DNA of 32,525 nt from assembly GCA_012798565.1 (NCBI GenBank), contig JAAZMX010000007.1:1-32525 (forward strand), in the 5' to 3' direction. This DNA is from Candidatus Kuenenbacteria bacterium. Lineage in GTDB: Bacteria; Patescibacteriota; Patescibacteriia; UBA2196; GWA2-42-15. Under the pieces are notes generated by a model, which worked only from the letters and a program-made list of their open reading frames with translations, made no database searches and was not told where the DNA came from. Every line of letters starts with the position of its first letter. Within the stretch, counting starts at the first letter, position 1. Below, piece by piece: positions 1,781 through 8,875 of the stretch. Position numbers and translations under genes: made by a program.

Positions 1781-3955
1781 TTATTTGCCGGCAGAAACCT
1801 TAACGCCGCCCCTAAATTTGGGATCATAGGCCATAAACTGGCCAAGGAGGCCACCGGTACCTCTAAAGATGCGGACGTGGGGACCACCACCCTGACCGGC
1901 ACCCGTGATAAGTTCATCTATCCCATCGCCGTTAATATCTCCTGAAGCCAAATTAACGCCGCCAGTAAATTTTTTATCATAAGCAAGAAACTGATTTTTT
2001 AGAATACCAAGTGAACTGAAAATTTTTATTTGGGGCGAAAGCTGGCTCATAGGAGCGATGGCGTAAGAAAGGCCGGAATCGTCATAATAACCGAAGGCCA
2101 CATTGATACCACCATAGAATTTATCAAAAGCCAGAAATTGTCTAATTAACTGGCCATGATAATTAAAGATTTTGACATAAGCTTGAGCGCCCGGACCGGA
2201 ACCAAGAATAATTTCTTCGAAACTGTCATTATTTACATCGCCAACGGCAATACTCAAGCCACCTTTGAAGAATTGATTAAGGGCCAAAAATTCTGAGAGC
2301 TTTTTGCCAGTTTGATTAAAAATCCTAACTAGCGGCTGATAACCGGCAGCCGGAACGGTAATAATTTCTTTCTGGCCGTCATTATTAACATCAGCAACCC
2401 CGACCCGCACGCCGAATTTCATTTCCTTATCATAGGCTAAAAATTTGGTTTTATAAACACCATTGATATCAAAGATATAAACCCAAGGTTCGGCTCCCTT
2501 TTCCGAGGAAACGATCAGTTCTTCCTGGTTGTCGCCATTGAGATCGCGGCTGGTAATATTGATGCCGTTACGGTTTGTTTTTTCCAGAGCGAAAAATTGA
2601 GAATATTGCTTGCCTTCAAAATAAGTTTTAACCTGAGGGCCACCGGATGGCCCAGGGGCGGTAACTAATTTATCAGTGCGAATTTCCAGTTGACTTAAAG
2701 AGTTTTTGGCGGCCGCCAAAGTGGCATAAACATTTAATTTGCCGTGTCCAAGTTTACCAAGATAGGTAGGGTTCTTGGCCTCAATATTATCAGTATTATT
2801 GAGTAAATAATCACGAATTTCTAAAATAGTTAATTCAGGCTTGAGCGCTTTGAGCAGACCGGCGGCGGCGCTGACTTGAGGAGCGGAAATAGAGGTACCA
2901 GACCAGAGACCGCCGTATTCCTTATCATATTGGGGGTGATTATTTTCTTGGAATAAAGTACTAAAGACACTCACGCCCGGAGTGACCAGGTCAATACATT
3001 TGCCATAGTTCGAAAAACTGGCCAGATGATCGTTGTTGTCAACCGAACCAACTCCGATAACCCAGTTATCCCCGGGGGTGTCACCATCATGACAAACTGG
3101 ATATTGAGGCTTGAAAGTCATATCAATCCCCTGATTGACTTCATTACCAGCCGCAGCCACAATCAGAATACCAGCTTGATAGGCCTTGGCGATGGCAGTT
3201 TTCAGGGTTTGCGATTCGCCCTCACCAACAAAGCTCAAGTTTATAATATGGGCGCCATTCAGGCGAGCATAGTCAATCGCCCTGGCAACGTCCAGAGTAC
3301 TACCGGTGCCTTCACCATTGAGAACTCGTAAAGCCATAATTTTGGCACGCCAATTAATACCAGTGATGCCGATTTTATTATTACCCTCGCCGGCAATCAC
3401 GCCGGCAATAATAGTGCCGTGGTTCATGCCAAGAAAATTATAATTACCATTAAATTTTGGTGAGGGATCCTGATCCTCGCTCAAGAAATCCCAGCCATAA
3501 TAATCATCAATATAACCATTACCATCATCATCAAGCCAATTGCCTGGGACTTCCTTGGTGTTGCGCCAGATATTATTTACGAGATCTGGATGATTTATAT
3601 TCACTCCTGTATCAATCACGGCAATGACCACACTGCTGTTACCAGTGCTGTAATTCCAGGCTTGTGGAACCTTAATCGAGGAAAGATAGGCTAACTGCTG
3701 AGGATAAAAAGTATCGTTGGGATCCAAAACTGAACGATAGAGATAGTTGGGCTCGAGGTATTCAATGGAATCATTATCTTGGCGATCAGAAATAAACTGC
3801 GCCACGGATTCATGGCCAGTATCCAATTGATAAATTTTGTCAGAATTTTTTAATTTGATAAGCACTTGGTTGGCTTGATGGGCTGGCGAACTGTCTATTT
3901 CGAAGTGCGAAGCGCGGATAGGCACACCAATAAAAAACAGGCCGATGATTATCAA
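1781..3955 (-). CDS. Secreted S8 (subtilisin-like) serine peptidase with C-terminal FG-GAP/VCBS-like repeats; annotated N-terminus likely incomplete (see finding at 3941-4005)
   Basis: Catalytic triad contexts VIAVIDTGVNINHPDL (Asp), NHGTIIAGVIAG (His), GTSISAPQVSAAAGLL (Ser), oxyanion AAAGNE. C-terminal ~50-aa repeats with D-x-N-x-D-G motifs (DLNGDN, DVNNDG, DVNNDS, DINGDG). Confidence 0.93.
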   Translation of the reverse strand: MIIIGLFFIGVPIRASHFEIDSSPAHQANQVLIKLKNSDKIYQLDTGHESVAQFISDRQDNDSIEYLEPNYLYRSVLDPNDTFYPQQLAYLSSIKVPQAWNYSTGNSSVVIAVIDTGVNINHPDLVNNIWRNTKEVPGNWLDDDGNGYIDDYYGWDFLSEDQDPSPKFNGNYNFLGMNHGTIIAGVIAGEGNNKIGITGINWRAKIMALRVLNGEGTGSTLDVARAIDYARLNGAHIINLSFVGEGESQTLKTAIAKAYQAGILIVAAAGNEVNQGIDMTFKPQYPVCHDGDTPGDNWVIGVGSVDNNDHLASFSNYGKCIDLVTPGVSVFSTLFQENNHPQYDKEYGGLWSGTSISAPQVSAAAGLLKALKPELTILEIRDYLLNNTDNIEAKNPTYLGKLGHGKLNVYATLAAAKNSLSQLEIRTDKLVTAPGPSGGPQVKTYFEGKQYSQFFALEKTNRNGINITSRDLNGDNQEELIVSSEKGAEPWVYIFDINGVYKTKFLAYDKEMKFGVRVGVADVNNDGQKEIITVPAAGYQPLVRIFNQTGKKLSEFLALNQFFKGGLSIAVGDVNNDSFEEIILGSGPGAQAYVKIFNYHGQLIRQFLAFDKFYGGINVAFGYYDDSGLSYAIAPMSQLSPQIKIFSSLGILKNQFLAYDKKFTGGVNLASGDINGDGIDELITGAGQGGGPHVRIFRGTGGLLGQFMAYDPKFRGGVKVSAGK

Positions 3956-4005
3956 AAAATTAAAATAGCAGCAACTTTATTTTGGAAATAGGAAAAAGTC
4001 ATAGA

Positions 4006-6228
4006 TTAGGGGTTGGAAATAAGATTATTGACGGTCATGCCTGGATGAGTGGCCAAGAAATCAGTTAATACTTTGTTAAACGAGGTTTGATCGCCGCTGT
4101 TCTGATAGATAGCCGCCAGTTGGCGCCAGTAGTCAATATTTTCGGGCTTGAGGTTAATTAATTTTTGATAAAGACTTATAAGGGTAGGATAATTTTTGGT
4201 TAGGCTATAAAGATTGACCAGGCGTTCAAGATTAACAATATTTTCTGACAACCCCAAATCAATCATAGTATTATACTCACTCGCGGCTTCTTCGTTCTGA
4301 CCAGTAATGATATAGGCCGTCAAGAGGAGCCAGCGGGCGTCAAGGTTTTTGGGGCTGAGAGCAACGCCCTTCTGAAAATAATTAGTGCCTTCCTTAAAAC
4401 TGCCCAGGCTAATAGCGGCTTGACCCATTTCAAAATAAATCTGCGGCCGTGTAGGCGATAATTTCAAGGCCTGCTCGCCCAGACGCAAGACCTGGCTGGG
4501 CAAAGTATGGTCGGTCGGAGTGGCGGCGTTGTACAAAATCATCAGATAAAGATAATTCTGCACATCAATGGGAGATTCGTCAATATTAGCCTTGATGGCC
4601 GAGAAGGCCGTTGCATAATTATCTTTTAATTGTTTTTGACCAGAAATATATTCAGAGCGGTTGAAATTTAAAATATTGTCTGTGAGCTTCTGCCGAATCT
4701 CCGGTGTGTGATAAGTATTAAGAGCTATGGCCTGCTGCATAGTGCTAATACCCTCGCCAATCTGGCCAAGATAGAATTTTTTTAATCCTTCTAGTGCCAG
4801 GGCGTTAGCTTTGGCTGGACGATAATTGAAGATAACAGCGGCTAGGATTAAAAATACCAGACAAGCAGCACTTAAAAAGTATTGGAGGGGCTGATAATTT
4901 TCCTCTGAAAGACCAGACTGGTAAAGACCCTGATGCCTATTAACAATAAAGCAGACGAAAGCTAAGACCATAAAAAGCATGATATAGGTAGGTAGACAAT
5001 CAAAAACAAAAATATTTTGGACAAAATGACCAAACAGAAAAGCGGTTGATAAAAGATAGATGGGCAAATTGGCACGATCCTTGAGGAGGAATTTGAAGAG
5101 ATAAAAAAAGCCCAGACCGAAAATAGCTAAATAGCCGATAAGGCCAAGCAGGCCAGCACTAACCGCGACATCAAAAACCGTATTGTGGGCGCGGTCAAAC
5201 CAAATTTGCGAGCCGTTGTCACGAAAAATTTCCGGATGAAAATATTTGTTGAAGGCAATATTGTAATTGTCCCAGCCATAGCCCAAAAGGAAGCGTTCGC
5301 GCCAACCGCGCCAAGAAGAGTCCCAGGCCAAGATACGTGATTGGGTAGTGATATCCGAGAGAGAAATAGTGGCAACGCGATTGAGAGTATTGGATTTGAC
5401 AATCCAAGAGGAATGACGATTACTCCAGACAAAAATAACAGAAAGCAGCAGAATAGACAAAAGCGATAAGGAAATAACTTTTACCCGACGGCGCGGCCAG
5501 AAAACAGCCAGAGCAATAAAGAGCGGGGGCAAGGTAACAGCCAAAGACAGAATAGCACCGCGTGTTTCAGTCTGCCAAAGAACATAAAGTTCAAAAATAA
5601 TTACCAATCCGGTGATTATTTTGGCCGGTATTTTTTTATATTCAAAAAATAAAAGCAAACTCAACCATAGGTGTCCGAGAGCATAGGCGCCAAGATAGGC
5701 CGGATTGCCCAAAGTAGATGATAGGCGGCCGGTGGCAGCGGAGACAATCCAAGAAATTTGGATATGCTCTTGCGCCAGAGCATATAAACCCACCAAAACA
5801 CTAATAAAAACCGAGGCACTAAAATATGACAGCCACTGACGACGTGAGCGCAGGGTTTGGGATAATAAAAAACAATAAATAATCAAATGAGAAATAGTCA
5901 AAGAACCTTCGCCACGCTCAATAGTACTCCAGAAGCTGCGGTAGGGATTGACACCGGTCAGACTAGTCAGAAGCACGATCAGTCCAAAGACCAGGATGGC
6001 GATGGTGAGTTTATGAAAACGCGGACGATACCAACGACAGAAGATGAGCAAAAGCAGATAGATAAAAAGAGCAAGCTCAATAATAAAGCGAAAATAAAAG
6101 ACTTTGAGCGAGATAAAAGGAAAAAGAAAATTCTCACCGACTAAAAGCGGGGTCAAAAGTGCTAAATATAAGCAAGCCCATAGACTATAGCGCAGATAGC
6201 GAACCAATGGTGAGTTAATATTAAACAT
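4006..6228 (-). CDS. O-antigen ligase/Wzy_C family multi-TM protein with C-terminal TPR-like repeats
   Basis: Multiple TM segments; RGEGSLTI, GRLSSTLGNPAYLGAYALGHL, ETRGAILSL, GYGWDNYNIAFNKYFHPE, WFDRAHNTVFDVAVSAGLLGLIGYL. Helical repeat C-terminus (FEMGQAAISLGSFKEGTNYFQKGVALSPKNLDARWLL). Confidence 0.9.
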   Translation of the reverse strand: MFNINSPLVRYLRYSLWACLYLALLTPLLVGENFLFPFISLKVFYFRFIIELALFIYLLLLIFCRWYRPRFHKLTIAILVFGLIVLLTSLTGVNPYRSFWSTIERGEGSLTISHLIIYCFLLSQTLRSRRQWLSYFSASVFISVLVGLYALAQEHIQISWIVSAATGRLSSTLGNPAYLGAYALGHLWLSLLLFFEYKKIPAKIITGLVIIFELYVLWQTETRGAILSLAVTLPPLFIALAVFWPRRRVKVISLSLLSILLLSVIFVWSNRHSSWIVKSNTLNRVATISLSDITTQSRILAWDSSWRGWRERFLLGYGWDNYNIAFNKYFHPEIFRDNGSQIWFDRAHNTVFDVAVSAGLLGLIGYLAIFGLGFFYLFKFLLKDRANLPIYLLSTAFLFGHFVQNIFVFDCLPTYIMLFMVLAFVCFIVNRHQGLYQSGLSEENYQPLQYFLSAACLVFLILAAVIFNYRPAKANALALEGLKKFYLGQIGEGISTMQQAIALNTYHTPEIRQKLTDNILNFNRSEYISGQKQLKDNYATAFSAIKANIDESPIDVQNYLYLMILYNAATPTDHTLPSQVLRLGEQALKLSPTRPQIYFEMGQAAISLGSFKEGTNYFQKGVALSPKNLDARWLLLTAYIITGQNEEAASEYNTMIDLGLSENIVNLERLVNLYSLTKNYPTLISLYQKLINLKPENIDYWRQLAAIYQNSGDQTSFNKVLTDFLATHPGMTVNNLISNP

Positions 6229-6333: not shown

Positions 6334-7713
6334 ATGATCAGCCCATTGGCTAAAATTAAAAGAATAATTTTATTTTTAGGGGATGTCAGCATCCTTTATT
6401 TTTCGTTATGGTTGACATTGCTCGTGCGCTATCAGAAAATAGTATCTGCTCCCGTTTGGAACAAACACTGGCTCCCCTTTACGCTGGTGTTCGGTTTATG
6501 GATTATCATCTTTTTTATCAATAAACTTTACGAATTAGAGACGGCTAAAAATAGTTTCCAGTTTTACAGCCTGCTCGGCAAAAGCATGCTTTGGTGCGCG
6601 CTAATCGGATTTGTCTTTTTTTATGTCGCCACGACCGGCATCTCGCCCAAAACAATCTTAATTTTGGATTTACTCATTTTCAGTGGCCTGTTTTTTATCT
6701 GGCGGCGTTTTTATAACCAATTAGTGGTTCACAAAAAATTTTTAGAGGAGGCCCTGATGATCGGCTTGACTGCGGAAACAATCAATTTAGCGCAAGAGAT
6801 AAACAGCCAGCCGCAAAAAGGCATTCGGGTAAAAACGCTCGTGCGGCTAGACAACAACCAGGCGCCATTGACGGTTGATCCGTTCTTTGAAGTGCTGGAC
6901 GAAACGGTTAATCTTCAAAATTTGATTATCAAAAACAAAATACGCCTGGTGATTGTCGCCAATAATTTGAATGAACATCAAAAATTGATCAATCACTTGT
7001 ATCAATCACTGGCGCAAAAGATCACGATTTTTGACTTGCCAAAATTTGCCGAGGAATTCACGGGGAAAATCCTGGTAAATACGATCGGTCAATTGTGGTT
7101 TTTGGAAAATATCAAAGAGGGCAATAAAAAGGCCTATGAAACTACCAAGCGCCTAACCGATATCGTCTTGTCTTTGGGTCTTTTGCTGTTGACCATGCCT
7201 TTTTTGCCCCTGATTTATGGCCTAATCAGGCTCGGCAGTCCTGGCCCAGGATTTTTTCAACAGCAGCGAACCGGACGTAATGGCAAAAAATTCATGGCTG
7301 TTAAATTCCGGACGATGAGCGTGGACGCGGAAAAAAACGGGCCGCAATGGGCGCAAAAGAATGATCCGCGCGTTACCCCGGTGGGGAGATTTATGCGCAA
7401 ATCACGAATTGATGAAATTCCGCAACTCGTTAACATCTTGCGAGGCGAAATGAGTTTTATCGGACCCCGGCCGGAAAGACCGGAATTTATTGAAAAATTG
7501 AAGACCACGATCCCCTTTTATGAGACACGCCTGCTCATTAAGCCCGGCTTGACCGGCTGGGCGCAAATTAATTTTCCCTATGGCGCGTCAGAAGCCGACG
7601 CCTTGGAAAAATTACAGTATGATTTGTATTATATCAAAAACCGTTCGCTGACTTTGGACTGGTCAATTATTTTGAAAACAATTAAAACGGTATTGAGCGG
7701 CGGCGGACAGTAA
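6334..7713 (+). CDS. Polyprenyl glycosylphosphotransferase (initiating sugar-1-phosphate transferase, WbaP/WcaJ-like)
   Basis: N-terminal TM segments, C-terminal bacterial sugar transferase domain: SPGPGFFQQQRTGRNGKKFMAVKFRTM...DPRVTPVGRFMRKSRIDEIPQLVNILRGEMSFIGPRPERPEF...LLIKPGLTGWAQI. Confidence 0.96.
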   Translation: MISPLAKIKRIILFLGDVSILYFSLWLTLLVRYQKIVSAPVWNKHWLPFTLVFGLWIIIFFINKLYELETAKNSFQFYSLLGKSMLWCALIGFVFFYVATTGISPKTILILDLLIFSGLFFIWRRFYNQLVVHKKFLEEALMIGLTAETINLAQEINSQPQKGIRVKTLVRLDNNQAPLTVDPFFEVLDETVNLQNLIIKNKIRLVIVANNLNEHQKLINHLYQSLAQKITIFDLPKFAEEFTGKILVNTIGQLWFLENIKEGNKKAYETTKRLTDIVLSLGLLLLTMPFLPLIYGLIRLGSPGPGFFQQQRTGRNGKKFMAVKFRTMSVDAEKNGPQWAQKNDPRVTPVGRFMRKSRIDEIPQLVNILRGEMSFIGPRPERPEFIEKLKTTIPFYETRLLIKPGLTGWAQINFPYGASEADALEKLQYDLYYIKNRSLTLDWSIILKTIKTVLSGGGQ

Positions 7714-7715
7714 GA

Positions 7716-7743
7716 TGAATTATGAATAGTGAATTATGAATAA
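7716..7743. repeat. Tandem 14-nt direct repeat (TGAATTATGAATAG / TGAATTATGAATAA) containing the downstream start codon
   Basis: Two adjacent copies with 13/14 identity read directly in the sequence. Confidence 0.9.
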
Positions 7744-8875
7744 CGGAATAAAACTGAATGACAAAATTTTGGGATTTTTTTTGACAGAGAAAATGAGCTT
7801 GGCCAAATGGGAGCGAGCGGGCATCTTGTCACGAGAAATCGCGCCCTATAATCTTTTGGCAAAACATTTCAAAAAAATATATTTATTCACCTATGATGGC
7901 AAGGAAGAATTGGCCTATCAAAAATATTTGGCGCCGAATATCGAGATTGTTTACAAAAGATGGCGCATGCGAGCTAGGGATTATCGCTGGCTCTTGCCTT
8001 TTTTGAATTGGCGCAAGACACGAGCCTGTGATTTTTGGAAAACTAACCAGTTAAAAGCCCGAGCAGCACTAATCGCCAAAATAATAAAGCCCAAAGGACG
8101 GTTAATACTTAGAACTGGTTGGACACAATCTCTTTTTCAGATAAAACAAAACGGACGAGCCGACAAGGCCATTATACGCTGGGAGAAGATCGCTTATTGG
8201 TTGGCGGACATGGCGCTAGTTACTTCAGAAGGCGACAAAGAATATTTGATCAAAAAATATAAGATTGAACCGAAAAGAATAAAGCTAGTCGCCAATTATA
8301 TTGATACGGATAAATTTTCGCCACAACCAGGGAATAAATATGAAAATCGGATAGTTTATTCTGGTAAAATAGAGGAACAAAAAAATTTAGTAAATTTGGT
8401 AAAGGCGCTAGCGGGAACAGGAATCGGTTTGGATATAATTGGCGGAGCTATGGAGGAAAAGAGCGAGCAATTAAAAAAACAATTGGAAACATTGGCAAAG
8501 GAGCTCCAAGTAAAAGTGACTTTTAGCGGACGCAGACCAAACGATGAGTTGCCAGGGCTTCTGAATAAATATCGAATCTACGTTTTGCCGTCTCTTTATG
8601 AAGGGATGCCAAAGTCACTTTTGGAAGCGATGAGCGTCGGTTTGGCCTGTATCGGCACCAAAGTGGCAGGCACCAAGGAAGTTATTGAAAATAATAAAAC
8701 AGGACTTCTCACCAGCACGACAGTGGAATCGCTCAGAGAGACGATCGCAAAGCTGGTGGACAATCGGGAATGGCAAGAAAAATTGGGTGCGGCGGCGAGA
8801 GAATTTGTGGTAGATAACTTCGCCCTAGCAACCCAAATCAATAAAGAAATAAAGATCTATGAAAGTCTTGTTTAA
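7736..8875 (+). CDS. Glycosyltransferase, GT4-like (GT-B fold)
   Basis: RIVYSGKIEEQKNLVNLVKAL, VTFSGRRPNDELPGLLNKYRIYVLPSLYEGMPKSLLEAMSVGLACIGTKVAGTKEVIENNKTGLL. Confidence 0.9.
   Translation: MNNGIKLNDKILGFFLTEKMSLAKWERAGILSREIAPYNLLAKHFKKIYLFTYDGKEELAYQKYLAPNIEIVYKRWRMRARDYRWLLPFLNWRKTRACDFWKTNQLKARAALIAKIIKPKGRLILRTGWTQSLFQIKQNGRADKAIIRWEKIAYWLADMALVTSEGDKEYLIKKYKIEPKRIKLVANYIDTDKFSPQPGNKYENRIVYSGKIEEQKNLVNLVKALAGTGIGLDIIGGAMEEKSEQLKKQLETLAKELQVKVTFSGRRPNDELPGLLNKYRIYVLPSLYEGMPKSLLEAMSVGLACIGTKVAGTKEVIENNKTGLLTSTTVESLRETIAKLVDNREWQEKLGAAAREFVVDNFALATQINKEIKIYESLV

Follow-up and report, generated by a model that had tools for sequence, protein, structure and literature searches.

A lone frame break in the signal peptide segment of a secreted FG-GAP subtilase gene from Candidatus Kuenenbacteria

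INTRODUCTION

The closest described relatives of the gene reported here are secreted S8 subtilases of Patescibacteria that carry FG-GAP repeats, among them six orthologues from the same order (G001, G003, G004, G005, G006, and G008; 48–64% identity) and a homologue in UBA4787 (DHGX01000003.1). Catalytic domain and repeats are alike in all of them, and the six orthologues also match the gene under study in the O-antigen ligase/TPR gene lying upstream and in how long the signal peptide is and what it is like. What sets the gene apart is that its signal peptide is split over two reading frames.

Three kinds of known system provide a comparison for such a split. As in homopolymer contingency loci, gaining or losing one repeat unit here would change the frame near the beginning of a secreted-protein gene, but the tract in our gene is short, common throughout the genome and not conserved. 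Poly(A/T) transcriptional slippage reported to rescue frameshifted genes in Blochmannia (PMC3017870) and Citrobacter tssM (PMC4256274) likewise concerns a frame broken at an A/T run that can in principle be mended in the transcript; the T6 run found here, by contrast, falls below the minimum reported for slippage by Escherichia coli RNA polymerase (PMC6260861). Lone indels in assembled genomes and recent pseudogenes share with our case the restriction to one genome, an undamaged main frame and the presence of further isolated breaks elsewhere in the assembly, the difference being that our case may be either an error or a mutation. We conclude that the gene is an ordinary secreted subtilase gene with a lone frame break.

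RESULTS

Layout of the locus and position of the break

The window analysed is a stretch of 32,525 nucleotides and comprises the whole of contig C16 (JAAZMX010000007.1) in a 1.06 Mb genome (G000) assembled into 75 contigs. The subtilase is a single-copy gene on its minus strand, and the main frame runs over 724 codons from TTG 3955 to its stop (1781–3955), a frame that the orthologues also carry without internal stops. It encodes a Peptidase_S8 catalytic domain (2741–3637, minus strand; PF00082, E = 3.1e-52, residues 107–405 of the product P0001) and an FG-GAP repeat region (1886–2545, minus strand; PF01839 and PF13517, about residues 471–690). Upstream lies a gene for an O-antigen ligase (Wzy_C) with C-terminal TPR repeats (4006–6228, minus strand), identified by PF04932, TPR models and synteny. 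Read along the minus strand, its TAA stop is followed by TCT and then by ATG (4002–4000), a gap of 3 nt.

From this ATG a short ORF of 16 codons, MTFSYFQNKVAAILIF, ends at TGA 3954–3952 (3952–4002, minus strand). Its start position and length are as in the orthologues, and it represents the ancestral start codon of the subtilase, with the n-region and the beginning of the h-region of its signal peptide. The subtilase frame stays open back to 3976, where a TAA at 3979–3977 bounds it, so that both frames are open over 25 nt (3952–3976, minus strand), and this computed interval must contain a net −1 event. A run of six T (3954–3959 on the minus strand, A6 on the plus strand) lies inside it as a candidate indel position. 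The ATG, the short ORF with its TGA, the T6 and the subtilase frame from TTG 3955, down to the 3 nt spacing, had been described correctly in the first-pass annotation, which proposed that the two frames are joined through the T6. The run is indeed a plausible site, but it is not the sole candidate, since a net −1 change anywhere in 3952–3976 joins the frames. That annotation also placed “TTT TTT before a TGA” at the break, which is wrong: the codons are TTA ATT TTT TGA, with a single in-frame TTT ahead of the stop. It passed over one further feature: TTG 3955 and the TGA overlap, as TTGA, in a way that could allow a stop-restart. Reading the TGA as an amino acid was considered and rejected as useless, since a TAA follows it directly in the same reading frame.

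Orthologues place the start at ATG 4002

In all six orthologues the frame is uninterrupted: it begins at an in-frame ATG, encodes a charged n-region followed by a hydrophobic core, and runs on into the protease; the signal peptide is thus continuous with the protease frame in 6/6 orthologues and interrupted here at TGA 3954–3952. Synteny is equally consistent, with the same O-antigen ligase/TPR gene upstream of the subtilase at all six loci. The same-genus genome has its subtilase ATG 2 nt past the ligase stop, compared with 3 nt in the window. Two relatives of another genus place the subtilase ATG inside the end of the ligase/TPR gene, with overlaps of 23 nt (L004, 1276–1298) and 11 nt (L005, 1118–1128), and in the remaining relatives the ATG comes after the stop.

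Length offers a second measure. Ahead of a conserved KLK motif the six orthologues carry 48, 44, 50, 50, 51, and 49 residues, and the gene studied here has 49 residues in the joined form and 33 when counted from the TTG, a form shorter than the joined one by 16 residues. These comparisons show ATG 4002 to be the ancestral start of the subtilase and support the upstream frame as its true N-terminus, as the first-pass annotation had suspected.

The remaining doubt on this point is that the subtilase truly begins at the TTG and the upstream reading arose by chance. When random genomic 50-mers were used as spacers, 1.4% gave a joinable, signal peptide-like reading that begins at an ATG no more than 12 nt from the stop, and a mechanical genome-wide scan for split signal peptides returned 5 similar arrangements among 710 genes here and 3 among 554 in the sister genome; the cases other than that of the window look like chance arrangements by eye. 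Because chance alone yields such joins at this rate, we rely on how well the reading fits the orthologues rather than on the peptide by itself. The orthologues are matched both in where the gene starts with respect to the ligase stop and in the residue count to KLK, which argues against coincidence and makes it, in our judgement, extremely improbable.

The joined signal peptide and the form from TTG

The −1 joined reading MTFSYFQNKVAAILIF/LIIIGLFFIGVPIRA (3911–4002, minus strand) is a predicted standard Sec-type signal peptide, judged by hydropathy and charge against the orthologues, with cleavage probably after RA. Its hydropathy reaches 3.49 over 12 residues with a net charge of +1 ahead of the core, close to the orthologue signal peptides with their values of 2.5–3.4 and net charges of +2 to +3.

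A functional restart at TTG 3955, coupled through the TTGA to termination of the short ORF, would make the layout a stable one in which a truncated signal works. The overlap is present, the main frame is undamaged and the TTG form still has a hydrophobic core (2.81 over 12 residues). However, this form is uncharged ahead of the core and falls 16 residues short of the orthologues, and inspection of the sequence before the TTG revealed no visible Shine-Dalgarno-like sequence. We consider a functional restart of this kind decidedly unlikely.

The break is private to one genome

The first-pass annotation had pointed to homologous loci in related genomes as places where the same break might recur. 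None of those compared carries it, and it is absent from every homologue read across the N-terminus. Searches of viral_contigs, phages, and the order likewise turned up neither another copy of the locus nor another strain. On these sequences, the break is private to the genome of the window among the relatives examined. A regulatory use confined to one species would be compatible with such a private break; the conservation by which programmed recoding is usually recognized is, however, missing.

Slippage on the ribosome or the polymerase

Slippage, programmed or incidental, could make the joined protein in two ways: the ribosome could shift by −1 on U_UUU ahead of the UGA, or RNA polymerase could slip on T6. 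A slip confined to the one UUU codon, while UGA occupies the A site, does yield the correct frame. Against the ribosomal route, the slippery site is a weak one: the zero frame holds no X_XXY_YYZ heptamer, and the P-site tRNA on ATT would need to re-pair on AAT. In E. coli, sites of the U_UUU_UUU type are reported to shift far less readily than A_AAA_AAG (PMC5009743). Folding of the region is no stronger than that of dinucleotide shuffles (z = −0.13 and 0.41), in a test for stimulatory structures other than pseudoknots. For the polymerase, slippage in E. coli is undetectable below T7 (PMC6260861), one unit longer than the run here, although this threshold may not be that of the present phylum; insertion rates climb exponentially with run length (PMC5574713). 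The split arrangement is, moreover, missing in all orthologues. Slippage as the source of the joined protein is therefore very improbable, and of the three explanations offered by the first-pass annotation programmed −1 frameshifting is unsupported for want of conservation, a proper heptamer and structure, whereas the simple indel is favoured.

Repeat tracts and phase variation

Switching between T6 and T7 within a population would turn protease export on and off, making the run a short contingency locus. A change of one unit would indeed switch the frame of this secreted-protein gene, and elsewhere in the same genome a heptanucleotide array sits exactly at the frame break of another surface-glycan gene. 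The T6 is, however, unexceptional and short for a contingency locus: the genome contains 2,963 A/T runs of six, this one included, and 1,367 longer ones besides, and the T6 so does not stand out as an unusually long, hypermutable tract. Neither does any relative show the break, and the indel need not lie in the T6. We found no paper on phase variation in Patescibacteria in a limited literature search. Phase variation at this run, the remaining one of the explanations first offered, thus lacks support and is in our view unlikely.

The longer A/T runs of the genome number 1,094 of 7 nt, 262 of 8, 10 of 9, and 1 of 10. The drop from 8 to 9 nt is sharper than any among the shorter runs, a pattern that selection against runs of 9 or more, or their loss during assembly, would produce.

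The heptanucleotide array mentioned above, (ATCAGAA)x4, lies at about 7638–7666 of L137 (G000:C58), in a gene for an O-antigen ligase/polymerase-like membrane protein (about 7005–8338). The sister-genome orthologue of this gene is unbroken and has no array, and counting of frames indicates that gain or loss of copies could bring the two parts into one frame. This gene is thus a better candidate for phase variation than the subtilase break. Further heptanucleotide arrays of exactly four copies occur in the same genome at L023:3124, L031:3126, L100:4132, L108:1440 and 9259, L124:5768, and L165:12429, with units of AATTTCC/AATTGGA-type, ATTTCTG, and TTTTGCC.

Other frame breaks in the genome

Comparison of the 576 sister-genome proteins that have a match in the genome of the window returned five split matches, four of which mark a frame-broken gene; the fifth (L142) is spurious, its region looking like 5S rRNA. 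The reverse comparison, of 597 proteins against the sister genome, detected no frame-broken gene. By our own calculation the difference between 4/576 and 0/597 corresponds to about p = 0.06 and is suggestive only. The scan is insensitive in the first 20 or so codons and missed the window case itself. Such results show that lone frame breaks occur in this assembly or lineage. The four other breaks all lie away from homopolymers of at least six nucleotides and therefore do not demonstrate systematic miscalling of homopolymers. Besides L137, three further frame-broken genes relative to the same-genus genome are located at L130 (about 317), L124 (about 15090), and L135 (about 3799).

DISCUSSION

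The split is very probably a lone indel in the signal peptide segment of an ordinary secreted subtilase gene, either a recent mutation or a consensus or assembly error. The likelihoods that we attach to this and to all other readings are judgements, not computed values. The ancestral start of the Sec-secreted FG-GAP subtilase is ATG 4002, directly after the ligase/TPR gene. A net loss of 1 nt, or equivalently a net gain of 2, would have occurred within 3952–3976, quite possibly in the T6, and would have separated the opening 16 codons from the frame of the remainder in one genome. We infer that the event was a plain indel, whether it arose in the consensus or assembly or as a recent mutation in the sampled strain. 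Any real mutation must be recent, since the long downstream frame is intact, and little protein, if any, would then be made, through translation restarting at the TTGA, and its signal would have no n-region. With the lone indel as the most likely explanation, a regulatory switch is disfavoured.

For work on similar genomes the case carries a caution: when a frame break in a metagenome-type assembly looks slippery, relatives should be compared before recoding is proposed. For the subtilase itself the annotation is corrected: the start of the gene is ATG 4002, and a gene call from the TTG would miss the export signal.
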